Position numbers and translations under genes: made by a program. A stretch of DNA of 64,000 bases, from contig NC_071331.1 in assembly GCF_010183535.1 (NCBI RefSeq), positions 4,774,001 through 4,838,000 on the forward strand. The letters are read 5' to 3'. The DNA comes from Caenorhabditis remanei. Lineage: Eukaryota; Nematoda; Chromadorea; Rhabditida; Rhabditidae. Shown in pieces: positions 1-63,185 of the stretch (its first letter is position 1; every line of letters starts with the position of its first letter). The notes below the pieces were generated by a model. The model ran no database searches and was not told where the DNA came from. It was given only the letters and a program-made list of their open reading frames with translations.

Positions 1-532
1 AATTACTTTTTTAAAATTTTATTTTTAACTTAAAAGTCCTTCAAATTTTGAGCGTAATCCGATGATACTGCTTACAAGAAACTTCTAAGGTCAACGAAGC
101 TGTATATCACTGTCACAAGTAGATTTTAGAGTTGTAATGCAATTTGTTTTCATGCTTATAATGACTTATAAATTTGAAAAGTGTCATGAAATTTATTGCG
201 ACCTGCAGTGTATAGAATTCCAACGAGAAGAGCCTGAACGAACTATTATTTTACAGATATTTGAAACATAAATTATTTTCCTGTGAATTCAATTTTTTAA
301 ATTTTATAGCTATAGCTCATCAATTTGAAGTAAAAGCTTTCAAACTACACATTTATTTTGTAACTTGTTGCAAACCTTACATAAATGTATATGCGAATAA
401 AAACAGTTTCGTGACTATTTTCAAATGAACCGAAAATTAAGTAATCCAATTACTACAGTCAAATCGGGTGGAAAATTTGCTGAGTTGATAAAAAGTGGAG
501 ATGAGACTACTGTGGTATCAATGAAGTTAAGG

Positions 533-650
533 CAAGGCTGTCGCACGGCCGGCCGCGGCTTTTCTTGCAAATCTCAAACAGACGCGATCGGCCCAAAAAA
601 ATTTTTGGCACCAGTGGGGGCACCCTGATTGTCAAGCTGTTCACGTTTTT
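533..650 (+). repeat. Truncated copy of the CAAGGCTGTC MITE family
   Basis: Begins with CAAGGCTGTC and the G/C-rich block ACGGCCGGCCGCGG. It then runs through the same GGCACCAGTGGGGG segment as the complete element at 6796-7019. The right terminus is not recognisable. Confidence 0.6.
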
Positions 651-801
651 TCTGCCTCAACTTGACAAAAAACTTTTCAAATTTATTTTTAGTTACTAAG
701 CGGCATTTTTTAGGTTCATGATTACAGGATAAATGAAAGTTTCTAGCAGTGAAAGTTTTTGTCTTGCATTTCCTCCACAAAAAGTGATTTTAAAATAAGT
801 C

Positions 802-868
802 CTGTTTCAATAATAGCATTTTTTGAAAATTTTCCTTTATTCTTCAGTAATTTATTTTTCGAAACCCA
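802..868 (+). ncRNA. Predicted 21U-RNA locus (core 802-809)
   Basis: CTGTTTCA core in A/T-rich flanks. The downstream CAGT at 845-848 supplies the 5' U at 848, 46 bases from the core start, so the predicted 21-mer is 848-868. Confidence 0.55.
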
Positions 869-1637
869 CTTTTTCAATCAAATTTGGAAAAAAAAGTGTT
901 TTGATTCATTTTTAGTCGTTGCATTATCAACCGTTCCTCAATTCCTTATCAAATTTGTATAACTTATTTTGATGTTGAATAAAGTGTGAAACTGAAAGTC
1001 GTTGTTTCTTCTCACAATACTTATCTAACATTTCATTCTCACCCTCGAGCCCAAAATACAACCCGTTCAGTAGAATCAGAATTTCTGACAGAAGGAGAAT
1101 TGTAGCGTCTGTGGTATAGTAAATTGAATGACCCTCTAATTATGGAATTCTTCTATTCTACCTGACTAGAATAATGTGGAAAGATTCCTAGCGTATGGAC
1201 AATATGTTAACTGAGTTCACCTCCCCCCATGCACATCAATCCAGAACAGAAGAATGCCTTAAATTCGCCACGGCCATCATCAAATTAGCAGAAATCTACA
1301 GTTTCAATATGGTGGTTAAGTTTCAGAACCATTATTCCATCTACTAGAAGATTGTATTTCCCTGGTTTTTTTTATTGAAAAAGAAATATGGCGCATCTTT
1401 TAGACACAGTTCCGATTTACACAACAGAAAAGATATTCCAAAAATCAACATCCATCTTTCAAATCGTTTTTTTTTTAAATTTTCTCTGCTTCGTTTAGAT
1501 GTGATTAAATTAATTCTGAGGGTAATGACAATTTATATAAATAATATTCAACATTTGTTCAGAACTTCAAAATTCAAACGAAATCTTCTGATACTGCGTA
1601 TTAAAAGTTATTAGTTCAACAACAAAAGTGTGTATCA

Positions 1638-1705
1638 CTGTTTCAAGTAGTTTTTAGAGATGTTTAACGATTTTTGATATTTGATGATACAAACCCTGAT
1701 TTTCG
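1638..1705 (+). ncRNA. Predicted 21U-RNA locus (core 1638-1645)
   Basis: CTGTTTCA core followed by TGAT at 1682-1685. The 5' U at 1685 is 47 bases from the core start; predicted 21-mer 1685-1705. Confidence 0.5.
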
Positions 1706-1777
1706 ATGATTCTAATAATTTCTAAAACTTTAAAATGCACCAAAACTCATTGACATTTTCTAAATGCAGAGTTAAAC

Positions 1778-1845
1778 AGTCAAAGTAAATTGATTATAAC
1801 GAGATATGAATAAATAACATTTCGTATTACAACACCTTGAAACAG
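1778..1845 (-). ncRNA. Predicted 21U-RNA locus (core 1838-1845, minus)
   Basis: TGAAACAG on the plus strand is the core on the minus strand. The minus-strand YRNT is CGTT, with its U at 1798; predicted 21-mer 1798 down to 1778. Confidence 0.5.
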
Positions 1846-2420
1846 AATCCATTTTTCTGTGATTTTTTTCCATATGGCTTTTCAAAGTGTAGTATTTTGT
1901 TCAGAACACTAAAACACCAGAAGTTCTAATACAAAATTTTGAAAATGGGTCATGTTTCAATAATAACATTTTACGTATTTCTACTCGGAATTTATAATCA
2001 TAAAGTGCGTTAGATAATAACAATTTGCAAATTTATCGGTATAAACCAATTACACCATATGTCTTGCTATTTCTTCCGTAAAAATTAGGCGTTCGTTTCT
2101 TTTTTAGTTGCACTTCCTGTTTATCAAATTTGTAGAACCTATTTTGATTTTTTCTTGATCTTTCTTTTTTTGATCGTTTCTTTTCTGTACTGCTCCGAAG
2201 TTACTAGGAGATCACTTTTTTTCTGTTTTCTTACTTTTTTTGTTAATATTTCAAAGGGTCTTCAAAAATGTTCTCTTTTGGAATTTCTAAATTTCCCTCT
2301 TTAATTTTTTTTACTTATTTTGATAATAAGATTAAGACGAATTAGTTCAAAATTTCATTCTGGTTACTTAACATTTTGTCTTGAATTTTCTTGGATCCAA
2401 AAGTAACAGCCGCAAAATAC

Positions 2421-5392: not shown

Positions 5393-5459
5393 GGACCAAA
5401 TCACCATTGTAAACCATTACAACATTCCAAAACCAACAAAAAAATTCATAGTGAAACAG
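5393..5459 (-). ncRNA. Predicted 21U-RNA locus (core 5452-5459, minus)
   Basis: Minus-strand core with YRNT TGGT and U at 5413, offset 46. The paralogous module has a core at 14376-14383 with U at 14339. Confidence 0.6.
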
Positions 5460-5523: not shown

Positions 5524-5589
5524 TATCATCGAAATGAATAAAGACTGTTAGAACAGAAGATTCTCAAACTTACAACAATAATGAAACAG
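5524..5589 (-). ncRNA. Predicted 21U-RNA locus (core 5582-5589, minus)
   Basis: Minus-strand core with YRNT CAGT and U at 5544, offset 45. Confidence 0.5.
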
Positions 5590-7019: not shown

Positions 7020-7689
7020 CTCCAGTTGATTGATAATAAACAGCAGTGAATTGCCAAATGCGCTTCAACCAAAAAGAAATATGTTTGTAGAAAAAATTGT
7101 TACGAGAAACGGTAAAAACCACAATTGAAGATCTTTAGAAACTCATACGTTCATTTTAATTTTGAAAAACCAATTATACCAGTTTTCTCCGTAAAAATTA
7201 GGTTTTCATTTCTTTTTCAGTGGATCTATCAAACGACACCCATCAAATCTGTAGAATATATTTTGATGTTAAAGAAAGTGTGAAACTGAAAGTCTTTATT
7301 TCTTCATGTCCAAATTGACCCGAAATTCAAATGACAACTTCTGCGCAGAAGGGCAATTGTAGCGTTTGAGATACAGTAAAGTGAAGGACCTTCTAATAAT
7401 TAAATTTTTCTACATAACTAGAATTGAAAGTGATAAACAGATGAAAATGGGATTTTTTTTTCAATTTTTGTGCAAGAACTTCCAAATTCAAACGATATCT
7501 CTTGATACTGCGTATAAAAACTTTTTAGTTCAACAACAAAAAGGTTCATCACTGTTTCAATTAGTTTTTAGAGATGTTTAACGATTCTCTAATATTTGAT
7601 GGAGCGTTGTCCCATTTTCCAATGATTATAATTTTTTAATTTAAAAATCTCAAAAATGCTACGAAACTTATTGACAATACGAAGTTAAA

Positions 7690-7757
7690 CGGGCAGTAAA
7701 TGGAATGCTAACGAGAAATGAATAAATAACATTTTTTATTACAACAATTTGAAACAG
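7690..7757 (-). ncRNA. Predicted 21U-RNA locus (core 7750-7757, minus)
   Basis: Minus-strand core with YRNT CGTT and U at 7710, offset 47. The context resembles the locus at 1838, suggesting the two are duplicates. Confidence 0.5.
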
Positions 7758-8329
7758 AAACCACTTTAGGTATGATATATTTAAATCAGAGATCTGTGAT
7801 TTTTTTACATCTAGCTTCTCAAAGCTTAATATTTTTTTCAGAACACTTCCAGATGTTCTAAATCTTTATTTTTTCAACAACTTGGAAATAGGTCCTGTCT
7901 TGCAATTTTTTCATGAAAGTCAGGTTTTTATTTATTTTTCAGTAGTTTTATTATCAACACTTTCATCAAAAAATCATCGAAATTGTAGATTTTTTTTGAT
8001 TTGTGTGAAAGTCTTCATTTCATCCCAGTACTCATTCAAAATTTCATTTATGGTTCGCAATAAATTGGCTATATATTAGATTTCTTCAGTTTCTTTTTCA
8101 AAATAGAGGGATTTCACAACAAAAAAAAAAGAATTTGGTACCCAATGGTTAAAAATAGGTAAAATCACAGTAACATGTTATGTTTTTGAGAGTCAAAATA
8201 TCCAATTTTCATATTTTTTAACTGATTTTGATGATGATTTTACGACGAATCAATTCAAAAGTTCATTACAGCTGGTTTAGTTCTTTTTTTTTAAATTTCT
8301 TAGATCTATAAGTAACGTCCGCAAAATAC

Positions 8330-9280: not shown

Positions 9281-9347
9281 CTGTTTCAATAATAACATTT
9301 TTCGTACTTCTACTCAGAAGTTATAATAATAAGTAGGTACAAAAAAT
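9281..9347 (+). ncRNA. Predicted 21U-RNA locus (core 9281-9288)
   Basis: CTGTTTCA followed by TAAT at 9324-9327, offset 46; predicted 21-mer 9327-9347. Flanking sequence resembles the cores at 802 and 14923. Confidence 0.6.
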
Positions 9348-9474: not shown

Positions 9475-9542
9475 CTGTTTCAAATAACTGTAAAATAGTA
9501 TTTCATTCATGTCCTTCTCGTTAGAAGGCAAGAAATCGGAGA
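9475..9542 (+). ncRNA. Predicted 21U-RNA locus (core 9475-9482)
   Basis: CTGTTTCA followed by CGTT at 9519-9522, offset 47. Confidence 0.5.
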
Positions 9543-10301: not shown

Positions 10302-12262
10302 TTAAGACGCACTCTCTGACTCGTTCGATCACCCATGTTCACCCGAAAAAAGTTGACCATCTCCGATTTGTCAATCCTTTTGATCAAAGACACTATCAAG
10401 TGTCCTCAGTAAATTGGGGTACTTTTTGGCCAGGTCCGTCACCTGGGTACCTAGAAAAATCAAAAAATCGATATTTTTCGAAAATTTTTCCTGAAGTAGT
10501 TAGCTATGAAATCTCAACGGGAAATTAATGTAGACACTATTTTAAGCATTTTTTGTGTTTAGAACAAAATTCCAGCTCAACACCTTCATAGTGAAAATTT
10601 TCAAAATATATGAAATTTTCGGGTTTTTTTCATGAAATCGTTTTTATCTCGGCAGTGACACGACAAGACAGCGTTTTTTATTTGAAAATCTAAATCTACA
10701 TGAAATTTGGTATCGGAAACATCTTGTCCCTACTCGTAACTCGGGGACCAAAGAACGGTTTTTGGGGGAAGTATGAGAAAAACTTGGATTTTAATTTTCG
10801 AGGTCCTCCGGTAAATCATTTTTGATGTTCCAAAACAAAGGTTTTTTAAGTTTTTTTATTCAATTATGTCATTTTATTTTATTCCCAACACGATTTTCGA
10901 TCATACCATAAAATTTTTTTCGAAAAAATTGAATTTTTTGAATTTTTGAAATTTTTTCCTGAAATGAATCATTTGAACTGAAATATGAAGGATAACAATA
11001 TAAAACTAAAAGGATATGATTGAAACATAATTTAGGTTTATGAAAAAATTAATTTCCATCATCGGGTCATCTGCAACGTACAATTTCATGATGAAATTTA
11101 GAGAAATGTTCAACTACGGTAGTTGATGCATAGGAACTTTGTACTTGCAACGTTATTTGGCAAAGGACTGTGTTGAAAATGACAGAAAACATAAGAAAAC
11201 TGCAAAAATTGATTAATATAGCGAGAATTTCGAAAAAAAATTGAAAAAAAGAGACTCATACATGTTCAATGGTCTGACCTTTTTTGGAAGTCAGAAAAGG
11301 TTTTTTTTTCAATTTTTTTTCGAAATTCTCGCTATATTAATCAATTTTTGCAGTTTTCTTATGTTTTCTGTCATTTTCAACACAGTCCTTTGCCAAATAA
11401 CGTTGCAAGTACAAAGTTCCTATGCATCAACTACCGTAGTTGAACATTTCTCTAAATTTCATCATGAAATTGTACGTTGCAGATGACCCGATGATGGAAA
11501 TTAATTTTTTCATAAACCTAAATTATGTTTCAATCATATCCTTTTAGTTTTATATTGTTATCCTTCATATTTCAGTTCAAATGATTCATTTCAGGAAAAA
11601 ATTTCAAAAATTCAAAAAATTCAATTTTTTCGAAAAAAATTTTATGGTATGATCGAAAATCGTGTTGGGAATAAAATAAAATGACATAATTGAATAAAAA
11701 AACTTAAAAAACCTTTGTTTTGGAACATCAAAAATGATTTACCGGAGGACCTCGAAAATTAAAATCCAAGTTTTTCTCATACTTCCCCCAAAAACCGTTC
11801 TTTGGTCCCCGAGTTACGAGTAGGGACAAGATGTTTCCGATACCAAATTTTATGTAGATTCCGAATATTAAATAAAAAACGCTGTCTTCTTGTGTCACTG
11901 TCGAGATAAAAACGATTTCATGAAAAAAACCCAAAAATTTCATGAATTTTCAAAATTTTCACTATGAAGGTGTTGAGCTGGAATTTTGTTTTAAACACAA
12001 AAAATGCTTAAAATAGTGTCCACATTAATTTCCCGTTGAGATTTCATAGCTAACTACTTCAGGAAAAATTTTCGAAAAATATCGATTTTTTGATTTTTCT
12101 AGGTACCCAGGTGACGGACCTGGCCAAAAAGTACCCCAATTTACTGAGGACACTTGATAGTGTCTTTGATCAAAAGGATTGACAAATCGGAGATGGTCAA
12201 CTTTTTTCGGGTGAACATGGTCTGTTGATCGATGCTCGATCGACTCGGAGAGTGCGTCTTAA
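10302..12262. repeat. About 1.96-kb near-perfect palindrome bounded by TTAA
   Basis: Left arm 10302 to about 11250 and right arm about 11298-12262 are reverse complements with few mismatches; the loop is only about 50 bases. The ends read TTAAGACGCACTCTC and its complement, so TTAA is at both boundaries. It could be a foldback element with a TTAA target duplication or an inverted duplication. There is no transposase. Short open frames inside the arms are not credible genes. Transcription across it would give a hairpin with an arm of over 900 bp. Confidence 0.85.
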
Positions 12263-12497: not shown

Positions 12498-12564
12498 TAT
12501 GTAAATGGTTTTCACTCAACACGAATTTGGTTTTTGAGATAGAATTGAGAGCAAGATGAAACAG
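12498..12564 (-). ncRNA. Predicted 21U-RNA locus (core 12557-12564, minus)
   Basis: Minus-strand core with YRNT TGTT and U at 12518, offset 46. Confidence 0.55.
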
Positions 12565-13931: not shown

Positions 13932-14048
13932 TTTTTCACTGTTGCAGGCGGTGAAAAAATTCAAAGAAGACATGCATTTTTATTCTATTTGAATTCAAAT
14001 TTGGTTCGGACTTTTTCTATTATGTTCCGTTTAGTTTTTCATCGATTC

Positions 14049-14116
14049 TGTTTCAAAAATTCAATATCTGAAACTTGTTTTCTGTTTTTACCAGTTCGAG
14101 GAGTGCAAAGTTAGAA
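14049..14116 (+). ncRNA. Predicted 21U-RNA locus (core 14049-14056)
   Basis: CTGTTTCA followed by CAGT at 14093-14096, offset 47. It is the duplicate of the 5162 locus. Confidence 0.55.
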
Positions 14117-14723: not shown

Positions 14724-14790
14724 TAACGAAAAGACCATGAATGAATGAAAGACCACGAATGAAATACTATTTTACAGCAACTTGAAACAG
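14724..14790 (-). ncRNA. Predicted 21U-RNA locus (core 14783-14790, minus)
   Basis: Minus-strand core with YRNT CATT and U at 14744, offset 46. Confidence 0.55.
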
Positions 14791-48273: not shown

Positions 48274-49904
48274 TTAAGAGACAATGTCTCGCTCAAGCCA
48301 CCAGGCCATGTTACACAAAAACGAAGTTGATCCGTTTTGGCTGATTTTTTGATATGTTACTACCCTTGAAATTCTAAGAATTTTGTACCATACCAGATTA
48401 GGCTCCGCCCCCTTCAACCTACCGAAACGATCGATTGAAGTTGAAAAATGAAAATTTTTCTTTCGAAAGATAGGATGAAAATCTCTTCAGAAATGAATTG
48501 CCAGCCTCATTTTGTGCATTTTACAAGATAACTACTTTTTTCTAGCTTGCCTGCATCATAGAGAAAAAATCACTTATTTGAAAAAATTGTCTATTTTTTC
48601 ATGTTTTTTGGATTTTTCGGGTGGTCGAAGTACTGTGGTCCAAAATGAATTTAGGATGGTAAGGTACATATTTGTGTTGGCTATCTGAAAATACAAAGAC
48701 TTTCCCCAGATTCCACTGTCTAGCTGAGTTATGATCAAAAAAGTGACGGAATTTGATGCTTTTTAACGTACCCCCCTCCATGGTAAAAAATGGCTGGGTG
48801 ACAAAAATCAAATAATTTTCTGATTTTAGTCAAACAGGGCAAGAATAGTACTCACACAACTTTTCAGACGTTTTTGGCCATGTTCCAGTGAGTTACAGAC
48901 TCCTCCTCCATTTTTTCGACTCAAAAAGTTTGAGCTCTTGTAACTTTCCAGATTATTGCTCAAAATCTAAAAAACTTCTGAGCAACATTGGAATATACTT
49001 CAAAAACACAAATAATCATTTAAAAGTTGATTATAAATAAGAATTCTGGTTTTTCATGCGCCAGAATACCTCACTATCGTAGACCCATGAAGCTATCAGA
49101 TATGAAATGAAACGAAAGTTGAACAAAACGACAAAATTTGACAGTTATATACTTATTTGTGTTTTTGAAGTATATTCCAATGTTGCTCAGAAGTTTTTTA
49201 GATTTTGAGCAATAATCTGGAAAGTTACAAGAGCTCAAACTTTTTGAGTCGAAAAAATGGAGGAGGAGTCTATAACTCACTGGAACATGGCCAAAAACGT
49301 CTGAAAAGTTGTGTGAGTACTATTCTTGCTCTGTTTGACTAAAATCAGAAAATTATTTGATTTTTGTCACCCAGCCATTTTTTACCATGGAGGGGGGTAC
49401 GTTAAAAAGCATCAAATTCCGTCACTTTTTTGATCATAACTCAGCTAGACAGTGGAATCTGGGGAAAGTCTTTGTATTTTCAGATAGCCAACACAAATAT
49501 GTACCTTACCATCTTAAATTCATTTTGGACCACAGTACTTCGACCACCCGAAAAATCCAAAAAACATGAAAAAATAGACAATTTTTTCAAATAAGTGATT
49601 TTTTCTCTATGATGCAGGCAAGCTAGAAAAAAGTAGTTATCTTGTAAAATGCACAAAATGAGGCTGGCAATTCATTTCTGAAGAGATTTTCATCCTATCT
49701 TTCGAAAGAAAAATTTTCATTTTTCAACTTCAATCGATCGTTTCGGTAGGTCGAAGAGGGCGGAGCCTAATCTGGTATGGTACAAAATTCTTAGAATTTC
49801 AAGGGTAATAACATATCAAAAAATCAGCCAAAACGGATCAACTTGGTTTTTGTGTAACATGGCCTGGTGGCCTATGCTCGAGCCAGTCAGAGATTGTCTC
49901 TTAA
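48274..49904. repeat. 1.63-kb palindrome bounded by TTAA
   Basis: Arms 48274 to about 49012 and about 49150-49904 are reverse complements with few differences. The same 70-residue open frame appears once on each strand, which shows it is a repeat artefact. The boundaries read TTAAGAGACAAT and ATTGTCTCTTAA, so TTAA lies at both ends as in the 10302-12262 palindrome, but the sequences are otherwise unrelated. Confidence 0.85.
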
Positions 49905-50510
49905 CTATTTTCTAGGTTTTGTAACTGTGGAAAAATTAAAGTTGCAAAATTTTTTGAATAATTGTCTAGATAAAAATTTGAAAAAAAGGAAAATGACAGT
50001 AGCAGTTCCTAGAATATGAACCCATCATGTTAGTTCATTCGTTGCACACGTGGAACAGCAAAAACTTGGAATCTGAGAGACAACAGTCTGAGAGACAATA
50101 ATAATGCAATCGGTTTGAGAGTAACGGTTACATTTTTGTTTGATCTTTACTGTTACATATATAAAACAGTTATTTATTATTGAAAATTTTGCTGTTTCTT
50201 CACAATTTTTTTAATTTTTGGTTTTACCGTAAAATGATTGTTCTGACGGATAAATTCAAGTAATTTTTAATTTTGTAATCAAGAAACCGATATTGATCTC
50301 AGGTTCCCGAAAATGTAGTTTTCTAAAAAGCAGACATTCTCATAATATATTTTTTAATTTCTAACCCCTATTTTTTATAGTAAAGTTGTTAAACGGTGGA
50401 AAGGTGCATTGAAAACCCGAAACTCAATACATCTTCAGGCGTTCAAAGAAACAGTAGAATCTTAAACAACAGTAATGATATGAAATAACATATTTTACAT
50501 ATATATTGCA
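49905..50510. other. Non-coding, copy B of 31470-31800
   Basis: No gene seen. 50090-50470 parallels copy A. Confidence 0.5.
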
Positions 50511-50518
50511 GAGCTGTG

Positions 50519-51036
50519 CGGAATTCCTTCTTCCTTCTTCCTTCTTCCTTTTTCCGGGCATTTTTTCACTTCCTTCTTCCTTCTTCCTTCTTCCTTTTTT
50601 GAAATTTTATTCCTTCTTCCTTCTTCCTTCTTCCGTTGAAATTGTTCGACTTCCGTGTTAAAAGTTCACAAAAATTTTGTAATTTTCGACTGAATATCAG
50701 CGGAGTTTTGGTGATTTTTAATGGAATTTTGTATGCAAAACAACGCCAAAATTCGTTTTCAGAGATGACTAGAAAAAAGTTTCCTCAAATTTGTCATTTT
50801 CAAAATTAACTTCCGATTTCCCGGTTTGGAACCCAACTTCCTTCTTCCTTCCTTCTTCCTTCCTTCTTCCTTCCTTCTTCCTTCTTCCGGGCTTTTTTCA
50901 CTTCCTTCTTCCTTCTTCCTTCTTCCGGGCTTTTTTCACTTCCTTCTTCCTTCTTCCTTCTTCCTTTTTGAAAATGTTATTCCTTCTTCCTTCTTCCTTC
51001 TTCCTTTTTTGAAAATTTTACTTCCGCACAGCTCTG
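50519..51036. mobile_element. hAT-type MITE filled with TTCCTTC repeats
   Basis: Termini CAGAGCTGTGCGGAA and TTCCGCACAGCTCTG. The 8-bp direct repeat ATATATTG is at 50511-50518 and 51037-51044. The interior is mostly degenerate TTCCTTC on one strand around a unique A/T-rich section (50640-50820). Confidence 0.9.
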
Positions 51037-51044
51037 ATATATTG

Positions 51045-51960
51045 TTGAAAAACAGATTTGCTTTTACGAAATCTTTTTTAACACATCGTGTACCGATATC
51101 ACAGTAATGGTTTGGTAGTGAAAGAAGAAGTGTTTTCAAAACAGTAAAACAGAAATTCACGGAAACAAGTTATCAATAAGTTTTTGATAATCATTGTGAA
51201 GAAAAAGAACCAACAAAGCGTTAATTTGTGTTTTGAAAAAAAGTATTGTATGACTAAATGCACTGAAATAAAATTCCGTCCGTCATTCATGTCCCTGGAA
51301 CACCTTCTGTTTTCCGTATATTCAAAAATAGATTCTTCTGCAATAAAAATGCTTATTAAAATAGTTCATGCTGCTAAAACCCTGAAAAACTCTATCTTTC
51401 TAATATTTGCGGTTACAGATGTATGTTAGCTAGACGAGGTTAGTCGAGAAGGCATTGAACGAAAGAGACACAAAAAAACCGGGACAGAAATTCATGAGAA
51501 CAACGGTCGACCATTTTGCCCTTTCCCAATTTTTTATGTTTCTGATTTTTGTTGAATATAAGATGTTTTAATGACCCAATATTGTTCATGGTTCTGTATT
51601 CGCCTCGAATATGCTCATTATTCGGTTTTGAAGACGTGAACGAATTATTTTAAGTTGCTTTCCAGTGTTCAACTGTTTCCCAACAACAAGGCGACCCTTT
51701 AGCACACACTTGAAACATATTCCTTGTAAAAAATAATGCGGATGGCATTTTTATAAATACTAAATCTCTGTTTCAACAAATTAATTTGTCCTATAACATT
51801 TTTTCAATAAGATAACCAAATTATTCAACAAATTATTCTTTTCGTGACTCCGGTAAATCACTTCTGTTTCAGCATCTTCACTTCTCGACTTTTACAGTGT
51901 CAGTTTCTAGTTTTGATGTATTTTCAAGCTAATCAAAGCAAAAAAATCCTGGTTTCATAT
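51045..51960. other. Intergenic, no gene seen
   Basis: A/T-rich. CTGTTTCA cores at 51768 and 51864. Confidence 0.5.
51864..51931 (+). ncRNA. Predicted 21U-RNA locus (core 51864-51871)
   Basis: CTGTTTCA followed by TAGT at 51908-51911, offset 47. Another core at 51768 has no YRNT at the right distance. Confidence 0.5.
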
Positions 51961-52165
51961 TACCCATCCGCCGGTGGCTGACGACTCGCTCAAAGTTCGG
52001 CCCGGGGACGCGGAGTGGATCTCGACCCGTAATTTCGATGTACGGCGGCTCTTGACCGTACTTTCTCAATGAAAAAAGTTTTATACTACGGTAGTCGCGT
52101 CGAGACCCACTCCGTGTCCCCGGGCCGAACTTTGAGCGAGTGGTCAGCCACCGGCAAATGGGTAA
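51961..52165. repeat. About 200-bp G/C-rich palindrome
   Basis: Left TTACCCAT, GCCGGTGGCTG and CTCGCTCAAAGTTCGGCCCG face their complements on the right, around a centre near 52070. A foldback MITE. Confidence 0.75.
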
Positions 52166-52169
52166 TAGA

Positions 52170-53850
52170 AAATGACAAAAATCAAAACATTTTCGAAATT
52201 TGAGGTGAGAGGTCGGAAAGACGACTGTGTGAAGGAGCAGGACGGGAGGGCAGTTTTTCTTTTTTTTGGACCCTCTCTCTCTCGTCTACCAGAAAATATG
52301 TGTGTGTGTACACATGTACATAAATTTTCTTAGGACGACCAACGCACCTCTTGGCATTGTCCCAAGATCATGTTGTTTGAATTGAATCTGCGTTGGTTTG
52401 AACCTGTTCAGTGTTTCAAACGGTTTTGATAAATCAAAAACAATGCCAGAGAATTGTTACGTAGACCTGTAGAACACCATTGCTTTTGCTGTAGAACACG
52501 TGAATTTATTCAAATTTTGTAAGCTAACCGAAAGAAATTTTTGAAATCGTTGGGGTGAACTTTCGAAGGCAATACAACATGAAAAATGGGAGAAAGATGA
52601 CGGTGAGAAGTGAGAGAGAAAGCAGAGAACTATGTACCATGGTAAAAAAAATGATGGACGGTTTCATGGTTTCTTTGTTTACATTACGATACACCGGGTG
52701 TTTTTAATCGGAGACGTTCCAATGGTTCCATTGGTATCCAACTGTTCCATTGTAGAAATACATACGTTTAGAACTGGGATTCTTCTAAAATCCCACCCGC
52801 TTTCTGCGTTTCAGAGGAAAGTTATCCGATGGAAATAACGGGTAAATATTGAAGAATTTATATTTACAAAAAAATATCAGTGTAAAACAAAACAGATTAA
52901 AAAATTAAGTAGGAAGCTGAAAATTTAGTTACTCATAGTTTTTTTTTCCAATTCGAAGTTCAGTTTTATCAATTTATCGATCAATTAACCCTGTTTTTTT
53001 ACTACTTGAAACATAATTTTTTCTGATATTAATTTTGTTATCAAAATAATCACTGTTTTGATGATTCGATAAACCACAAATCATCAAACTTTTGACGTTT
53101 AATCGATAACGATTATGAAAGTTTAGTCTGATAATTATGAACTGAAAACGTTTCTGTCCGAGGAATTCAAACTTTTCTTAAAATCATATAAAGTTTCTGT
53201 TACAGTTAGCTTATAAATCGATTCTCAATTTGTTTGCGTTAGTGTCCATCATGGAGCAAAAGAAAACACTTTTTTTGAAAGAATGAAATAGTGTTGCAAC
53301 AAAAAACTTGTTGGTTCAATTGCGGAGAAAAATGGCTGGAAATCGAACAAAACGTCTGGAAGTGTTATGGATTGAATTCTTCTCCGCTAAAGTTCGCTGT
53401 ACATTTCTGTCGATTGTCGATCCAATTTGTATCTCAAAATATTTTTTGTTTGCACCATCATTGGGCCATGTTTTTTGAGAATACTAAAAACATTCGCTAT
53501 CCGAATTCAATTTTTTTTAAACATAAATCGACGCAGATTTAGGGGTTGAGATTAAAATTCTCTTGAAGGTAGGTTCGGAAATTTGATTCAAGAAAGTTTG
53601 CTTTTTTCAATGTTTCTTAATTTCTTTAAATATGAAATGGTTTAATGATCCATGTTGTGTTAACAATGTAGCGTAGACCTCACTCAAACTTTTTTTCAAT
53701 TCCAGTTACTCAGTGCCACTTTTGGTACATCCATTTTTTTGTGATTCAATTTTGTATATGTTCATTCTTTTCAAGACACGAATAAATTGTTTTTAGTTGC
53801 TTTCCTGTGTTCAACTGTTACCTAATAATCTCTGTTTTGACAAGGCTATG
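52170..53850. other. Third, partial copy of the duplicated segment
   Basis: 52190-52430 matches 24620-24840 and 44560-44830, including the palindrome at 52351-52365. 53120-53270 matches 30590-30700 and 47260-47370. No gene seen. Confidence 0.55.
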
Positions 53851-54001
53851 AACTTCTGAGCAAACTGTTGAGATTGATATGGATAAAATTCCAAATCCTG
53901 CGCAAATTACCCTCAAAATATCAATTTGACAGGCCGATTTTTTGCGATGTATGGTTTAACAATTCCCTGAAGGAGGGTTTTTTGTAGAACAATAACGATT
54001 C

Positions 54002-54068
54002 CTGTTTCAGGCACTCGCTTTTTAACATAATTCAGTCCAGTACATAGTTGTCGTTTCAATATCTATTT
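54002..54068 (+). ncRNA. Predicted 21U-RNA locus (core 54002-54009)
   Basis: CTGTTTCA followed by TAGT at 54045-54048, offset 46. Confidence 0.55.
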
Positions 54069-54467
54069 ATCATAAATCTTACATCATTTTTTGAGATTTG
54101 GGGAGCCCCGCGTCCCGAATGATCATAAAGCTGCTAAAAATCCTCCAGTTCTAATGAAATTTTGGAAATCGAGTTCTCACATGTATCTGTTAGTTTTGAG
54201 AAAGTTTCACTGTAATCCAATCAAAGCTCACTGGTTTGAAAATTAAACTGGAAAACTGTAGACCACCGTTTTATCACTCCGCTACGTTTTGTATATGTTA
54301 AAGGCGCATCTATTAGCTCGGCACAGTTCTAACAACTGCGCTCCCCCGAAATCCCCTTGAAAACTGTCTCTTTCTCTCTGAGTCTCTCAATTTGGCACAC
54401 AATTTTTCTCGGTTTCGGTAGAGTGCGGTTGTAAGAAGCTCACCGTGCTAATAATTTCAGGGTTGGG

Positions 54468-54756
54468 AAATTCCGGGCTGGCCCGGCCCGGCCCGGTCGG
54501 CCCGGATTCAAAAAATGTGCACCATTTTTTCACAAATTTCTGCAAAATTTTCATTTAAAAAAAGTCAAAATTCTCAAAATTTCTCGTACGCTAATGTTTT
54601 TACCGATATTCTAAAACACAGTTAAAAAATCCACTTTTTTGCAAAAAAAGTCAAAAAAAATTCAAGATCTTTTCAAAAAGTTTCAAATTTCTACAGGAGC
54701 CGGGCCGAGGAAAATTTCTCAGTCGGCCCGGCCCGGCCCGGAATTTCCCAACCCTG
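54468..54756. mobile_element. 289-bp hAT-type MITE with GGCCC repeats
   Basis: Termini CAGGGTTGGGAAATTCCGGGC and GGAATTTCCCAACCCTG. AATAATTT is duplicated at 54460-54467 and 54757-54764. Tandem GGCCCGG units lie inside both ends, like the autonomous hAT element at 24998-27916, but the extreme termini differ. Confidence 0.9.
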
Positions 54757-54807
54757 AATAATTTGTTCGAAATGTGTCGCGGAATTAATAGGTCTTAATT
54801 CACGACC

Positions 54808-55958
54808 TACAGTAGCGGTCAAAGGTGAGTATACCTCGATACTTTCCTATGTATCTCAGCTGAAACTTGTCCGTTTTGCATAAACTTTTTTTTCAAAGAT
54901 AGCTGAAACATCCAGTAAAACTGTCATAAGTTTTTTGTTAGTAGTGATTAGCTGATTTTTTTGATTATCAATTTTTCCTGATCTAGATTTGAAAATCCGG
55001 AAAAAAACTTTTTATTTTTGAACTGGATCATATGATTTTTTGAGTTCAAAATGATGAGTTACGTTCATAAGAACAAAATCTGATGTTAAAATGCTTCTGT
55101 GAATCTTCATCGTCGTGCTACAGCTCCAGAAGTCCAAACTGGTATGCATGGCTAAAACGTTATAACTCATCGTAAAAACGTCCAAATCGGTTCAAAATTG
55201 CGGAAAAAGATGCGTATTATATTTATCAACACTATTACAACAAAAAATCTTGATTTTGAGAAAAAAATTTTTCCAATTTTTTTCACTCAAAAATCTCGAG
55301 TTTCGAAATTTTACCCAATTTTTCGTGTTTTTTGATTATAACACAGTGACAACTCGCGAGTACAAATTGAATTTTACAAGAAAAACAAAGTTTAGGCTTT
55401 CTTCTAGCTAATTACAGTTGTTTCAAAATTAAAAAACATGAAAAATTGGGTAAAATTTCGAAACTCGAGATTTTTGAGTGAAAAAAATTGCAAAATTTTT
55501 TTTTCTCAAAATCAAGATTTTTTGTTGTAATAGTGTTGATAAATATTATACGCATCTTTTCCCGCAATTTTCAACCAATTTGGACGTTTTTACGATGAGT
55601 TATAACGTTTTAGCCATGCATACCGGTTTGGACTTCTGGAGCTGTAGCACGACGATGAAGATTCACACAAGCATTTTAACATCAGATTTTGTTTTTATGA
55701 ACGTAACTCATTATTTTGAACTCAAAAAATCATATGGTCCAGTTCAAAAATAAAAAGTTTTTTTCCGGATTTTCAAATCTAGATCAGGAAAAATCGATAA
55801 TCAAAAAAATCAGCCAATCACTACAAACAAAAAACTTATGACAGTTTTACTGAATGTTTCAGCTATCTTTGAAAAAAAAAGTTTATGCAAAACGGACAAG
55901 TTTCAGCTGAGATACATAGGAAAGTATCGAGGTATACTCACCTATGACCGCTACTGTA
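54808..55958. mobile_element. 1.15-kb mariner-like palindrome
   Basis: Termini ACAGTAGCGGTCAAAGGTGA and the complementary TCACCTATGACCGCTACTGT, flanked by TA. Arms of about 560 bp and a short centre near 55385. No transposase. Confidence 0.85.
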
Positions 55959-56249
55959 GCTAAATCACCAAAGCCACACGGGCTCTTACAAATAACAGTC
56001 GTCTCCACTAGACTACAACTTTACACGAACTATTCATTAACCAATTCTACGTAACCTTCCAACCTCTCCTACGGTCAACTCCAACTACAATCAGTCTACC
56101 GAATAAACGTGACCTTGGCCTATGACGATCTGACCTTTCGATAACCATCTGCCCCACATCATTCTGCATATAAGGAAATGGAATTAACCGGAAACTTCAC
56201 TCTTGCTTCAAGAAGCTGTCACCACTTCCCTGCCAACCCGCCGTCTGAG

Positions 56250-59200
56250 ATGTCCTCCCTGTCAATGTCGTCTATGGACAAGAAGAAGGAATCGTTGAAG
56301 GGTAAAAGGAAAAACTATTTTGGTTAGTTACAGTACCGCCCAAAAGGTTATCAACTTTGGCTGTTTTCAGTTGAAAATGGCCAACTTTGAGTGTGTGTCA
56401 TGATAATACAGATTCTCCCACAAGGAAAATTTTGTATAAACCATACAGAACAAAGATAGATCTTCATTTTTGTAATCGACAACTTTTTTGTACGAGCACT
56501 CTCTGGCAAGTTACGTATCAACAAAGTAATTTCTCCCTCAAATCGACCAATTTCAGTGCAGAATGGCGTGATTTTTGAGCTGTCGTCTTAAAATGACCAT
56601 AACTCTCTAGAGAGTGCTCGTACAAAAAAATTGTCGACTACAAAAATAAAGATCTATCTTTGTTCTGTATGGTTTATACAAAATTTTCTTTGTGAGAGAA
56701 TTAGTATTATCATGACACACACTCAAAGTTGGCCATTTTCAACTGAAAATAGCCAAACTTGATAAATAACCTTTTGGGGGTACTGTAAGTCTAATAAAGT
56801 TGTTCATAATTTCTCTCTCCCTCTTTCCTGTTCTCACCAAACTCATCTGACTTGGGGTCCGCGCCCTATAAGTCAGAACAGAATTGTCTCGAAACGAAAA
56901 CATGATTTGCAGTTTTTTCAGACCTGCAAAGCTCGAAAATACGAAATTTGATCTTTTCAACTACGAGACCATTCCGCGAAATTCCCAATAAATTAGATGC
57001 GCCTTTAACACCATCTGGCAACTGTTTGTGTGTTGTGTGTCCTTACACACACCAACGCTCATCGACGCGCAGGGTGTACTCACACTCTCTCTTTCGTTCA
57101 CTCGTTCTCCCCAATGACCTTTTTTCCTATTTTTTCGCTAAACGCGCATTTTCTTCTTTTTCTCTGTTGCTGTTTATACATTTTTCACTGTCAGTAATTT
57201 TACAATAATGATTCGATATAAAAAGCGGTTGAAGTGATTTTTTGAAACTCTTCAAATTGGCGTGAAACAGGAAAAAGTGTATTGCGCAGTTATTGATTTT
57301 TCGGTGTCTTGTTGTGTCATTGTCACGCTCTAAAGTTTTTTCGTTTTTTTCTTGGTTGTTATACATTTTCAAAGTCCTTCGGGTCCGGATCTTACAAATT
57401 TTCAAGGCCCGTTCCGGTCCGAAAATTTACCGATTTTTGATTTTTTTTTTTGCAAAAAAAGAAATTTCGTTAAACAAATTTTGGTTTTAATCAGAACGAT
57501 GCTCGAAAATTCGGCCTAAAATCACTGAAAAACTAAAAAAACTGAATATTTAAGTTTTGGCGCCAAAATGTCTGACAGCTCTATCAATTTTTCGATCCGC
57601 ATTCAAAATTTAAGCCTTGGGGAACATTAGTTGCCCTTTTTTCTGAATATCTGACCCCCCCCCCCCCCCTTATTATTGAGGTCCAGTTGAGCGCGTTTTC
57701 TCGTCCTCTCTTATTTACTTTGGCACACTTTCTGACAACTGCGCTCCACCGGAATCCTCTTGAGAAATGCCTTGCGTGTTTGCAAAAAACGTGTCGTGCT
57801 TATATTTCACCCACTTCGTTATCCCCTTTGTTGCTGTACTAATTTTACTGTTTCGCAGAGTTAATTATTTCTTATTCACATTTTACATGTACTGAATAGT
57901 GCTGTCTTTGAAAAAATGTACCGAAATTCAATTTTGACGCCTGATAGCACCCTCACGAGAAACGCACCAAGACTACGCTTGGCGCTTTTCTCAATACATT
58001 TCTCCTCTTGTGACCGTCAATATTCCATGTCTAGCCTTCTCCCCCTTTCCCTGTCAGCCTAACCATCAATCAATTTTTTTCAGTTTTGCCAATGCAACCG
58101 AACCGTCCCCCTGCAATGCCGCATTATCGCCAGGGACTACGACGAGCCGTTCCAATGAACACCGCTCCACCGAGACCTGGATACGACATATCGATTCTAA
58201 ATGCCGCCAGTGCAAGACCAAATGAACTCATCTATCAAAGATTTCATGCTCCCGCAAGACCCCCAGGACCACCTCTGTGTATCACGTTGGATTCGGATGG
58301 AGAGGAAGTGGAGCCCGTAGCCAAGAAAGCACGACAAAGCACGGATGAAGTGATTTGCCTGGACTCCGACACGGATCAAGCCGACTCGGATTCAGATGAC
58401 GTGATTTGTTTGTATTCGGACTCTGATGCTGGCTTGGAGTCAGATTCGGACGATGTGATACATGTTCAGACAATTACCTATTCGAGAGTGGGTGACAAGT
58501 CACGTGAAGGTAAGCGATATTAAGAAGCGTGGAAAGTTAACGTGTGGTTTTTAGACTTGAAAGTTGGAACCGATGCAGTCAAAGCTGAGCCAAAGCCAGA
58601 GCCCGCTGAAAATTCTGGAACAAGTCATCCCACAACACCACTGGCGTACAAATTTGAGACGGCTCAATCTGGGTTAGTGCAGGTAGCCGCAGTAATTGAG
58701 GATGAGAGCACCGATGTGCTGGAAGGTATACCAGAGTCTGAGCCGGAGCCCGAACCAGTGCCGGAATCAGAGCCCGTCGAGCATCCGGAATCTAGTCAAG
58801 AGGACACTCAAGACGATGCTCAAGCTATGCCAGTGCAGGTGGCAGCGGAAAATCCATCAGAAATGCTGGAGGTCGTGTTGGAGCAAGAGCCAGAGACCGT
58901 TGAGGAATCAGAATCTGAAGATCGACCAATCTTACCATCCCCGCAATCACCGGAGACTGGAGCACAGCAAGACAAGCCTACAACACTATCCACAGATGGG
59001 TCTAAGCCAGCAGATGAGTCGGAATCAGCACTATCTGGAAGCTTCTCAGAACATGGACGTCAGGACGATGAACTTGCTACACCAACTCCAGACGTATCCG
59101 CGAGGACAGATGATGAGCCAGACAGAGGTGAGATCACAAATACACGTACTAGCAAAACTTGCCGGCCCGTAAATCCCTTAAAACGCAATATTATGGGCTG

Positions 59201-61112
59201 AAAAATATACGAAAATATAGATCTCGGCGAGTTCACATCCGCCGTGACCTACTTCGTGCCGGATCGCTATCCGTTAACGTTCCGCGGACCAGGAAAAGTG
59301 TCAAAAACGCTAAAATGACCAAAAAAGCCATTCTAGCCTGCCCGCGGCACATTAACGACTAGCCATCCGGCCCGTAGCAGGTCACGGACATAGAACTCGT
59401 CGAGATCTACGTTTTGATATATTTTTCAGCTTGTGTTCTCAGTTACGCGCCGGCCTGTTTTGGCGCGGTTTGAAAAAACGCAAATACAGATTCATCTTCA
59501 ATATACTATTTTCCAGATGTGTTAGTCGAAATTCACCATGAAATTTCATCACCAAATGCGTCAGCAATCTCCGAACTCGGACCAGCAGAGCAATCTGAAT
59601 CTGAAAACAAGGAGAATCAAGGCGCCGACACATCTGACACTACTCCTCAGAGAATTCTACGCTCCCAAATATCAAAGACTTCTCCAAGCCAACCAGAGGT
59701 GAAAGAGAGCATTTATGCGAACAAGAAAATTCGAGAGGGCGCGGATTATCAAACCGTTATGCAACCACTCTTAGAAGATCATGAACCCCCAAGTGTTCAC
59801 TACGACAAGGAGTGCGAGGAGAGGATTTGGTCTCCAAGAATCTTGGAGCCTCCCGAGATGGAGGATCTCTTCATCGAGCAGACTCGAGTTGTCTACTGGA
59901 AAGCCATCTGGCGTCAATTCAAGGGGCGGATTTTGTTCGAAGACGCTCTTCAGCACCTGATGGAGAATGACTATGATTTTGCGGCAAGCTTGGAAACTAT
60001 TGATAGGTGTCTGGAGAAACGACCTAATTTGATGAAGCATCCGTGTATGGCGCAGGCGGCACGACTGGTGACGCATGGACTGAAGGAGACGGTATCGATG
60101 AGAAGGCTCCGGAAATTAGCGGTAAGTATCTGGGAGCTAGGAATCAGGGTTGAGCGGAAGGAGGAACGCGGAACGGAAAATTCTCAAAAATTCGGGCCTT
60201 TCTGAGGTTTTCCGGGCCTTTTGTCCTTTCCGGGCCTCTCCGGGCCTTCCCGGACTTTTTCGGGCTATCGATCCTTTTGGGGCTTTTCCTGGCCTTTGGG
60301 CTTTTCCGTGCCTTTGGGCTTTTCCGGGCCTTCTCAAGCTTTTCCGGCCCATCAGGCTTTTTGGGGCTTTTCCGGGAATTCCGCTTATCCCTGCTATGAA
60401 ATCAAACTTAATTTTTTTCAGCTTTCCAACTTCCAACTCCCCGAAGTCCACGACTACAGCTTCAAGTTCCTCAATCTCTGCTTGTTCTCAAAGTTTTATG
60501 AATCCAAGTGTCTATGCGACGAAGCTCTCTGCAAACCAATGGACTTTGAGCCTCGATATGGATGCTCGAATTGCACCAAGCGACCGATTGAAGGCAATCC
60601 GTTGTGTCTGATCTGTCAGACTTATCAAGAACTTACTGGAGAGAAACGTCCCGCCAGAAACGTTTACTTTACGGATGAGGAGAAGGAGTTGATTGAGAAG
60701 TGGGGGCAGATGGAGGAGCAACGTCTCGGAAGGAATTTGACAAGAGAGGAGTTCGAGAAGCTTCTGGAGAAGGAGAAAGTTAAGAAATGGATGAAACTGG
60801 AGATCACAGAAGAGGAGAAGCTCATGCTGAACTTCCAGCATCCGAAAACTGCTGAGAGTTATTTGAGAATGAGCAACAAGGTGAAAGCAAAACATTTCGT
60901 GAAGTACTTGAAGCCATTCGTCCTTCCGTTGTTCCCGGCGTGCAAGTGTGACCAGTCGAAGGAGAGACAACTGATGATTGAGAAAGATCATCTCTTTGTT
61001 CCGGAGGTACGGGAGAAATTTTCTTAAAACTAAACGAAAATAATAATTTCAGATACCCAATGAGCCCGAATACATTCGTGAGGAGGAATTCAATCCGTGG
61101 GTCGATGGATAA
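56250..61112 (+). CDS. ELM2-domain protein with SIM array and short GATA-like finger
   Basis: Proposed exons 56250-56301, 58084-58509, 58555-59127, 59517-60121, 60422-61006 and 61053-61112 stay in phase and give 766 residues. Exon 1 (MSSLSMSSMDKKKESLK) is the least certain. Residues 84-145 hold four hydrophobic-acidic motifs (CITLDSD, VICLDSD, VICLYSD, VIHV) resembling SUMO-interaction motifs, with KKAR as a possible nuclear signal. Exon 3 is acidic and low in complexity. About 411-511 is an ELM2 domain (KIREGADYQTVMQPLL, RIWSP, FEDALQHLMENDYDFAASLE), which in MTA, MIER, CoREST and EGL-27 recruits class I HDACs. Cysteines 600, 603, 614 and 617 lie in CSNCTKRPIEGNPLCLICQT, like a GATA finger whose loop has 10 instead of 17 residues. 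This suggests an EGL-27/MTA-type repressor. Introns 1, 3 and 4 each contain a MITE. Confidence 0.8.
56329..56787. mobile_element. Mariner-like palindromic MITE in ELM2 gene intron 1
   Basis: Termini CAGTACCGCCCAAAAGGTTA and the complementary TAACCTTTTGGGGGTACTG, flanked by TA. The centre carries CAACTTTTTTGTACGAGCAC in both arms. Confidence 0.85.
57204..57270 (-). ncRNA. Predicted 21U-RNA locus in ELM2 gene intron 1 (core 57263-57270, minus)
   Basis: Minus-strand core with YRNT CGCT and U at 57224, offset 46. It lies in the long proposed first intron of the ELM2 gene, on the opposite strand. Confidence 0.5.
57655..57669 (+). repeat. Run of 15 cytosines
   Basis: An uninterrupted C15 tract in an otherwise A/T-rich intron. 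The length may be unreliable in the assembly. A G-quadruplex or i-motif is possible. Confidence 0.8.
59155..59470. mobile_element. G/C-rich palindromic MITE in ELM2 gene intron 3
   Basis: Second copy of the 18886-19222 element: GATCTCGGCGAGTTC, TGGCCAAAAAAGCCA-like centre, GCCCGCGGCACATTAACGA and a terminal GTTACGCGC. It sits between exon 3 (ends 59127) and exon 4 (starts 59517). Confidence 0.75.
60145..60393. mobile_element. hAT-type MITE with GGGCCTTTTCC repeats in ELM2 gene intron 4
   Basis: Termini CAGGGTTGAGCGGAA and TTCCGCTTATCCCTG. Imperfect flanks CTAGGAAT and CTATGAAA may be a decayed 8-bp duplication. The interior is repeats of GGGCCTTTTCC type on one strand. Confidence 0.75.
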
Positions 61113-61975
61113 ATGTGCCAATCATCTCTCCATTATAATAGCTGTTGTGACTGGGTGTAATAATTGAAAGTTTCATATTTTTTATTTATACTGGTATTGA
61201 TGTTTTATAAAAGTTACTGTGTTTAGCTGTTTCAGTTTGTTTATTTTGCAAGTTCCATAAATGATATTGCAATAGTCGTATCGCAGTGTCCGCTGAAATA
61301 AGTCAAAAAGTCAGATGTCACGGCTAGAAATTTGTGGAGACGTGGATTCTATAAAGATTAGGGAAAAACTGTCCTGGAAAGGGTTTGATGGACTTTGACC
61401 GGAGAAGAATTGACTAGCTGGAATTAGGGTGACGTCACTACTGGGTTAGGCTATCACATACTTGCAAATTTACGGCAAGGCCCGGCTTCAAAAAAAAAGG
61501 TACCTATTTTTTACCAAATTTTTTGAAATTTTACATTAAAAATTTCAATTTTTTGACGCATAACTATCTTTTGATTGAATTCTGAACTATAGTCAAAAAT
61601 TCGACATTTTTGGTAAAAAATTCAAATTTTCGTTCAAATTTTTAGTTCAAATTTTTCAGCCGGGCCTCGGGCCGGGCCAGGCCGGCTTTGGAAATTCTCG
61701 TCACGGCCCGGCAGTTTTCAATTACAGCCCACTGTTTCAGAATTTCATGAAAAGTGCTAATAAATTTATCGACCTTTAGTAAATATTCAGTCTTGGACAC
61801 TCTTATAATTTTTTCAGATGGCTTGAGGCTTCATACTATAATTTCGAAAAGTAAGACAGACTATGGTGCATTGTTCATATACCTATATTAACCTGAAATA
61901 TCAGCGCAAAACGGTTTCTACAACCCACCGAAACTGGGAAAAAATTGTTTTGAAATCGAGAGACTTTTCTTAAAG
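61113..61975. other. Region 3' of the ELM2 gene
   Basis: No gene. 61470-61730 resembles a GGCCCGG-type hAT MITE (GGCAAGGCCCGGC left; GGGCCGGGCCAGGCC right) without clear target duplication. 21U-type cores at 61227 and 61732. Confidence 0.5.
61227..61293 (+). ncRNA. Predicted 21U-RNA locus 3' of the ELM2 gene (core 61227-61234)
   Basis: CTGTTTCA followed by CAAT at 61270-61273, offset 46. It begins only 115 bases after the ELM2 gene stop codon. Confidence 0.55.
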
Positions 61976-62357
61976 AAGGACTCACATTAATTATTGCTCC
62001 AAACGCTACAATTCCCGTTCTCTCCTGACCCAAAAGGAGCTTTGGTGGAAGAGTTTTCCGCGCGGCCGTGAAGTCCTCTCGGACAAGATTTCTGTTCAAT
62101 TCCTCGTTTTCTCACAATTTGGAAAATGAATATTTATTGGAAAAAATCGAGGAATCGAGAATTATATTTGCCCAAGGGCCACTTGGAAAAACTCTTCCAC
62201 CTAGGCTCCTTTTGTGTCAGGAGAACAAGAATTGTAGCGTTAAAAACGATTTTTAGCAGATGCTCCAATAATGAAAGTTTCTAACATTTCTAGTTGTAAG
62301 AATTGTCTAAAGGATCGGAATTTGAAATAAAAAAATGACATCAGTCCTTCTTTAAGA
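61976..62357. mobile_element. Foldback MITE related to 12661-13208
   Basis: Starts AAAGAAGGACTCAC and ends TCAGTCCTTCTTT. It shares GGAAGAGTTTTCC and GTCCTCTCGGACAA blocks and the internal ATTTTTAGCA near a terminus with the element at 12661. It is shorter and more diverged between arms. Confidence 0.7.
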
Positions 62358-63185
62358 GGATTGCGGTAGAGCGCACTTGTAATAATCGTGTTGCTCTAAT
62401 GAAGGGGATTACTTCATTTTTCTAAATTTTACCATTTCACCAATTTTGTATAAAATTTACTATTTTCTTCATTTTATTGGACGTCCATTCTTCGAATTCA
62501 TGAATATGATTATCCCGATATTTTTTCTTGGTGTTGATGAGAAGCAGCGTGATTAGTAAACTTAGATCAGCAAATAGAACATCCGAAAATTTTTTTTCCG
62601 TTCAATTTGAATGAGTTTCTGAAACCAAAAATACTTCTCTGGCAGGCAGTTGAAAATTATACCGGCATATAGTTTTTACGGTAATTTCTTTTCCTAGACC
62701 CACCAACTTCTAAATATGCGCGGCGCGACCGCCAACGCACAACGACGCTCATCGACGCAAACGTCTCACGCACAACACGCTTTTCTTCAGTCTCTGCACA
62801 CTTTTTTATTTTTGTTTTTCGCTGTTTCATCTTCCGCTTTTCTACCTTTCGATTTTTTGTTTTCAGTAGTCTCAAATCATTTTTTTCTGTAAAACACGAA
62901 GAAATTTGGACGAAAATTGGAAATTATCGATTTTTCGCTGTTTTGTCTTCTTGATAAATTTTTGATTTTGATAGCAAATTTTAGTTGATCCCTTCAAGAA
63001 GATAAATTTTAATCTCTCTAATTTTTTTTTCAAATATCTCCGCCTGATAAATCGCTAGCGCCATTTTTCGTTCCGTTTTTTCTCGTTTTATTTCTCTGTT
63101 CGCCTTTGATGTCGCCGATACCTCCACCCGCGCGCTCCACCTTTCCACCACCTTTATCACCGCCCTCCACCTGAGATACTTTTGT
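62358..63185. other. Intergenic upstream of the second ELM2-type gene
   Basis: No coding exon recognised. The promoter of the downstream gene probably lies here, in a patch of higher G/C at 62700-62780 and 63100-63180. Confidence 0.45.
62822..62887 (+). ncRNA. Predicted 21U-RNA locus (core 62822-62829)
   Basis: CTGTTTCA followed by CAGT at 62864-62867, offset 45. It lies upstream of the second ELM2-type gene. The flanks are less A/T-rich than usual, so this is a weaker case. Confidence 0.4.

Follow-up and report, generated by a model that had tools for sequence, protein, structure and literature searches.

The 64,000-nucleotide stretch of chromosome IV of Caenorhabditis remanei PX506 considered here (positions 4,774,001-4,838,000, that is 4.774-4.838 Mb, of a 130.5 Mb genome; hereafter the window) is very probably part of the type I PIWI-interacting RNA (piRNA, 21U-RNA) cluster of that chromosome, a reading that rests on the DNA sequence and to which we give a probability of about 93%. 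From the same features we infer that the predicted loci are expressed. A type I 21U-RNA gene yields a 21-nucleotide (nt) RNA with a 5' U bound by PRG-1, a loading step that is established in the pathway, and its capped precursor starts 2 nt upstream. In PX506 the left arm of chromosome IV ends at about 8.6 Mb (PMC10461856), so that the window lies inside it.

The exact octamer CTGTTTCA, core of the Ruby motif, is found 38 times in the window, 24 on the plus and 14 on the minus strand, exactly as the first-pass annotation had counted. The chance expectation of 2-3 copies proposed there was too low, as second-order Markov resampling of the window yields 6.2 +/- 2.4 (maximum 12 in 60 draws), yet the excess is real. 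Among the 674 octamers of the same composition present in the window, CTGTTTCA is the most frequent, the runner-up reaching 15 copies. Over the whole genome it is counted 19,000 times versus 6,781 for the reversed octamer, with a density of about 146 per Mb genome-wide versus 594 per Mb in the window. Taking the C of the core as position 0, a YRNT (pyrimidine, purine, any base, T) with its T at offset 45-47 follows 26 of the 38 cores, one more than that annotation had; the remaining three-base bins between offsets 12 and 89, 25 in number, hold 2-16 each. In C. elegans the commonest position of the core G is -44 relative to the 21U-RNA, equivalent to a C-to-U offset of 46 (PMC3597512); the spacing in the window is the same, and the type I promoter geometry suggested for it is borne out.

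The same arrangement recurs along the chromosome. Twenty samples of chromosome IV, each of 10 kb and at positions that were not random (6 of the 20 lie within 0.5 Mb of the window), contain 115 cores, 85 of them with the YRNT at 45-47, versus 21-41 in the other three-base bins. At least 4 cores are present in 12 of the samples and 0-2 in the remaining 8, those at 0.5, 5.7, 16.1 and 21.3 Mb having none. The densest one (C4:23900001-23910000, far to the right of the window) has 29 exact cores in 10 kb, a hint that a further dense cluster lies close to the right end of the chromosome. When window and chromosome IV samples are pooled, the YRNT stands at 45-47 in 111 of 153 cores versus 39.7 expected (P = 3e-33, the sites being partly non-independent). 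Outside chromosome IV, 10 kb was sampled from each of I, II, III, V and X, and a further four 5-kb samples came from I; these nine samples contain 4 cores in 70 kb. An artefact of base composition is rejected in view of the Markov resampling, the same-composition octamers and the other chromosomes.

The geometry is also kept by several one-base variants of the core, among them CAGTTTCA (49 of 86 versus 18.7 expected), ATGTTTCA (41 of 77 versus 18.0) and CCGTTTCA (24 of 32 versus 8.1), and no such signal was found for the one-base variants TTGTTTCA (17 of 59, 13.2 expected) and CTTTTTCA (9 of 55, 10.1 expected). A matrix of core plus start was built from 85 loci of chromosome IV that lie outside the window, followed by three rounds of retraining on hits from that chromosome. 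With the threshold set at 16 it predicts 91 loci in the window; the samples of other chromosomes, 70 kb in all, yield 4, and 10 resampled windows average 2.9. Lowering the threshold to 14 raises these counts to 121, 10 and 9.5. The 91 loci comprise 90 distinct 21-mers, 58 on the plus and 33 on the minus strand, and 26 of them have an exact core. Given CAGTTTCA and ATGTTTCA with the same geometry and some 90 predicted loci, the 38 exact cores are probably an undercount. The proposal that piRNA genes are clustered here on both strands finds good support in motif density, in spacing, in the bias of the sampled cores towards chromosome IV, in the held-out matrix scan and in the divergence of paralogues described below.

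Male or female germline expression in C. elegans is influenced by the first core base, CTGTTTCA being male and ATGTTTCA female in the tested examples (PMC3597512). Both forms are present here, and some paralogues differ at the first core base, for example those at 28870 and 46085. The core at 28870 (28870-28940) also has a 4-base insertion in its spacer relative to its copies, which places the conserved CAAT start at about offset 50 and makes this locus a natural spacing variant.

Each locus would be a mini-gene in which a Ruby-motif core (CTGTTTCA or a near variant) is followed by an A/T-rich spacer and a YRNT start, the T of which, about 46 bases after the first core base, would be the 5' U of the 21-nt guide. 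By analogy with C. elegans, the Ruby motif would recruit RNA polymerase II together with USTC, which consists of PRDE-1, SNPC-4 and TOFU-4/5 (PMC6468775). A short precursor, capped as the C. elegans one (PMC6468775, PMC6436959), would then be made, trimmed to the 21U-RNA and loaded on PRG-1. The DNA itself shows the geometry, its concentration on chromosome IV among the samples, local duplication as a source of additional loci and, between copies, divergence of the 21-nt body that is faster than in both flanks, above all at positions 2-8.

The known type I clusters of C. elegans lie on chromosome IV at 4.75-7.5 and 13.5-17.5 Mb (PMC9683057) and have in common with the window the CTGTTTCA core, the distance of about 46 bases from core C to U, the YR before the U, the use of both strands and the chromosome; the window differs in belonging to another species and in that its tested units sit in a locally duplicated region at 3.3-4.9 Mb. 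The C. elegans sub-clusters are interrupted by piRNA-depleted domains of trimethylated histone H3 lysine 36 (H3K36me3; PMC6436959), and in the window too, as expected of Caenorhabditis type I genes, sub-clusters are split by piRNA-poor intervals. C. briggsae clusters have been placed on chromosome IV at 0.02-7.1 and 13.0-15.0 Mb and on chromosome I at 9.8-12.0 Mb (PMC9683057). Ruby motif, left part of chromosome IV and both strands are shared with C. remanei, and no sign of a C. briggsae-like chromosome I cluster was seen in a sample too thin to exclude it (1 core in 20 kb at 9.5-12.5 Mb). The piRNAs of Pristionchus pacificus are dispersed in introns of active genes and form no clusters (PMC6436959); they share the Ruby motif upstream of the 21U-RNA, here a predicted one, whereas the loci of the window are clustered and sparse in gene-holding intervals. 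A fly-type transposon-trap cluster gives a long precursor from a transposon-rich array, and the possession of its own core and start by each predicted locus speaks against that kind. Earlier sequencing of C. remanei 21U-RNAs is reportedly that of Shi et al. in 2013, and the resulting set may include reads from loci of the window. As small RNAs of C. remanei have been profiled, with 21U-RNAs 2-3 times more numerous than in C. elegans (review PMC6468775), and as published clusters with this motif exist in both C. elegans and C. briggsae (PMC9683057), the word undescribed, applied to the cluster by the first-pass annotation, was too strong.

The cluster itself is expected in the genus, and the added value lies in its paralogues. 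Self-comparison of the window reveals diverged duplicated blocks, mostly 70-80% identical, some of them with cores. In a genome-wide search with six core-bearing units, the main copies of all six were located on chromosome IV at 3.3-4.9 Mb. For five of them all matches listed are on chromosome IV; for the sixth, of whose 150 candidates 40 were scored, the long matches, five counting the unit itself, are on chromosome IV, and the others mostly consist of a repeat, some 40-60 bases long, that lies at the unit end and is dispersed on several chromosomes. Approximate positions of the local copies are 3.31-3.48, 3.78-3.99, 4.33-4.52 and 4.77-4.83 Mb. Units taken from the left of the window (1.5-9.7 kb) recur near 3.31, 3.79 and 4.33-4.39 Mb; for units from the right (19-52 kb) the places are near 3.45-3.48, 3.95-3.99 and 4.48-4.52 Mb. 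For contrast, a coding stretch was searched as well, and both its relatives are on chromosome V. These data suggest, at the level of sequence, that the cluster grew by local duplication, and the coordinates suggest that a block of a few hundred kb to half a Mb is present about four times.

Three of the units illustrate the pattern, all with matches, counted including the unit itself, on chromosome IV exclusively. Unit 1 (1547-1929, plus strand) is a duplicated block with one plus and one minus predicted piRNA gene; it has 13 matches and a paralogue at 7460-7861 (plus, 73% identical). Unit 2 (19218-20101, plus) has 17 matches and a paralogue at 32510-33405 (plus, 72% identical). Unit 3 (28600-28960, plus) is a duplicated promoter block with 11 matches, and self-comparison and alignment give it a paralogue at 45007-45535 (plus). 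Among the unit 1 copies near 3.31 and 3.79 Mb of chromosome IV, one pair (L045/L046) is identical and another (L042/L043) nearly so over 281-286 bases; for those copies a recent large duplication and an assembly double are both possible, while copies of 72-80% identity are too diverged to be assembly doubles. Some of the near-identical copies at 3.3-4.9 Mb are separated by about 475 kb.

What differs between the copies is mainly the predicted guide. In unit 1 (13 sequences aligned) the plus-strand core and spacer are conserved and the body differs, and in 5 of the 13 a shared change of the core goes with the absence of about 13 alignment columns, those with the start. In unit 3 (10 sequences aligned) the similarity of most copies ends at the CAAT start, the predicted start of the 21U-RNA. 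More generally, of the 66 alignments that cover an exact core (each pair being counted from both sides), 20 stop between -2 and +7 relative to the predicted U. In a first comparison of 25 paralogous pairs, at least one of them counted twice, the body was less conserved than +21-40 (16/25, P = 0.015) and +41-79 (19/25, P = 0.0009).

A larger test drew on the window and on the 20 samples of chromosome IV, in which 220 chains were aligned, with alignments above 92% identity left out, and set 96 site observations in 40 chains against 3,816 pseudo-sites in 199 chains; an identity of 0.65 on both sides was required of real and pseudo-sites alike. Paralogues are identical at 0.667 of the body, 0.794 of the next 20 bases, 0.833 of the left and 0.850 of the right flank, versus 0.798 in pseudo-bodies, the GC content of bodies (0.366) and pseudo-bodies (0.362) being alike. 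Within the same chains the real body lies below the pseudo-sites in 22 of 29 (P = 8e-4), and the window by itself gives 10 of 13 (P = 0.012). Chains share members, so that these P values are optimistic and the count by family, with the body below the next 20 bases in 17 of 23 (P = 7e-4), is the safer figure. A 20-base window slid in 5-base steps has its identity minimum at the predicted body. Base by base, identity is 0.94-0.96 at the first three core bases, 0.87 at the U and 0.51-0.63 at positions 2-6. With gaps left out, positions 2-8 remain below pseudo-sites (0.713 versus 0.830, P = 4e-7), and positions 9-15 (0.795 versus 0.827) and 16-21 (0.790 versus 0.842) are not significantly different from them. 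The fast part is thus the predicted guide, from the predicted U to some 20-25 bases on, with the DNA on either side staying alike; such a boundary supports the predicted 5' starts independently of reads, and a body faster than control DNA implies more than lack of constraint. In young duplicates, taken as a test between selection and mutation, 1 difference was counted in 120 body sites, too few sites to separate the two.

Several observations weigh against this interpretation or weaken it. In the window, 12 of the 38 exact cores have no YRNT at 45-47, and two high-scoring loci start with AGAT instead. As to polymerase pausing, the GC content after the U is about 0.30-0.36 with no step at 5-nt resolution, and composition by itself gave no clear signal downstream. 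Retraining of the matrix relied on hits of the matrix itself, the threshold was picked after the counts were known, and some repeats are common to training samples and window, as found with BLAST. In the first comparison the body was not significantly below +80-149 (12/18, P = 0.053) or the upstream DNA (10/18, P = 0.18). The same-chain contrast weakens when the dense sample L010 is left out (14/21, P = 0.037), and in 3 of the 23 families the body is above the next 20 bases, with 3 more tied. As loci were chosen for having a core and a U, the high conservation of both is partly built in, and the Y (0.77) and R (0.83) before the U are no better kept between paralogues than the spacer. Finally, with gaps left out, real sites exceed pseudo-sites in the conservation of +41-80 (0.871 versus 0.836, P = 0.002), so that part of the body-minus-right contrast is due to the flank.

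The octamer could be riding on a repeat or transposon-like family, its count inflated by duplication. Many cores at 1-15 kb do lie in diverged duplicated segments, about 70-80% identical, which means that the 38 cores are not independent sites, and all six units tested are multi-copy. However, the 45-47 spacing recurs in the pooled chromosome IV samples, out to 23.9 Mb, the main copies are local rather than dispersed, the body diverges while the DNA on both sides stays alike, and the five unit 1 copies with a changed core are without the start stretch too. Such an origin is therefore rejected as an artefact, with hardly any probability left to it, since the spacing recurs and the variation falls where piRNA genes predict. 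Real type I promoters that are largely silent or decayed in the window would account for the common degenerate cores and for paralogues devoid of core or start. They are very improbable nonetheless, as the window has 91 loci above a threshold rarely reached by controls and as the acceleration of the body depends on the state of the partner promoter. With cut-offs of our choice, the body deficit is -0.215 for intact partners (score at least 14, 25 chains), -0.207 for middling ones (12 chains) and -0.080 for dead ones (below 10, 11 chains); intact and dead differ (P = 0.01), and dead partners do not differ significantly from pseudo-sites (-0.040, P = 0.46). The contrast between live and dead partners indicates that a functional distinction persists.

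For the fast body itself, diversifying selection or a transcription-linked mutation hotspot is suggested by these data, and flank constraint may explain part. A neutral body beside flanks slowed by constraint finds some ground in the extra conservation of +41-80, but pseudo-bodies held to the same flank rule are clearly more alike than real ones and most chains repeat that difference internally, which makes a neutral body unlikely. A hotspot tied to transcription or to polymerase pausing at the start, in place of diversifying selection, is a serious contender that falls somewhat short of even odds. The dip spans roughly the short transcribed stretch, with more gaps (0.137 in the body versus 0.062 in the next 20 bases), and is seen with live and middling partners but scarcely when the partner is dead, which would equally be expected of a process linked to transcription. 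Once gaps are left out, however, the excess is significant at positions 2-8 only, a pattern that selection on the seed fits better.

The alternative with selection would be a birth-and-death family of guides, in which local duplication copies promoter-guide cassettes, promoter and 5' U are kept, and selection diversifies the guide, above all its seed (positions 2-8), beyond the neutral rate, so that the copies watch different targets. We propose it tentatively, at rather less than an even chance. If true, it would explain the origin of new worm piRNA genes and run counter to the view that there is little selection on individual worm piRNA sequences. From genome sequence, the duplicated C. remanei loci show one source of new loci, local segmental duplication, together with a faster-diverging body. 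In excerpts of the open-licence literature on C. remanei clusters, worm piRNA gene duplication and guide selection (including PMC6436959, PMC3597512, PMC9683057, PMC6468775, PMC9071541 and PMC10461856), no statement on cluster duplication or on guide divergence faster than the flanks was found among the matches listed, which is weak evidence of absence.

The predicted loci are distributed in three sub-clusters. The first and dense one (1-20500) has 47 matrix-predicted loci and 22 exact cores, the second (28801-36999) 10 and 4, the third, again dense (44701-54100), 22 and 8, and the sparser end of the window (54101-64000) 6 and 4. Between them lie two depleted intervals, 20501-28800 and 37000-44700, from which exact cores are absent, as had been claimed, and where the matrix still places 4 and 2 degenerate loci. 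Predicted loci thus number 2.3 per kb in 1-20.5 and 44.7-54.1 kb versus 0.48 and 0.26 per kb in these intervals. The SET genes assigned to the intervals were confirmed by Pfam as two SET-domain open reading frames on the minus strand, one in each (22428-23078 and 42073-42795), which sit within duplicated stretches (22048-23051 and 41761-42762) found by self-comparison to be 72% identical. The hAT element was not substantiated: the open reading frame at 25669-26415 has no Pfam match at E<=1, although two relatives of its DNA are present on chromosome V.

Of the 91 predicted loci, those with an exact core, each spanning from the core to the end of the 21U and given with its score, are on the plus strand 802-868 (22.4), 1638-1705 (18.6), 7552-7620 (17.4, offset 48), 9281-9347 (21.7), 9475-9542 (22.2), 14048-14115 (21.6), 14923-14991 (16.3, offset 48), 19284-19351 (26.5, the top score), 19897-19962 (16.9, start AGAT), 29646-29713 (16.5), 44797-44865 (18.7, offset 48), 45489-45555 (24.9), 45780-45845 (20.9), 51768-51833 (18.5, start AGAT), 51864-51931 (18.0), 61227-61293 (17.8) and 62822-62887 (20.5). 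On the minus strand they are 1778-1845 (17.4), 5393-5459 (19.0), 5524-5589 (19.9), 7690-7757 (19.3), 12498-12564 (20.4), 14724-14790 (24.4), 18793-18858 (17.4), 36292-36357 (22.6) and 57204-57270 (21.4).

A long palindrome occupies 10333-11250 and 11303-12220, with 918-base arms that are 98% complementary and separated by 52 bases. Both arms carry the same piRNA-like locus (ATGTTTCA, score 18.7), so that one identical predicted guide would come from two loci. A second palindrome (48297-49023 and 49145-49871), with 727-base arms that are 99% complementary, is possibly a fold-back transposable element. An array of 20-base and 40-base tandem repeats lies at 46139-46751, and orientations are opposite on its two sides.

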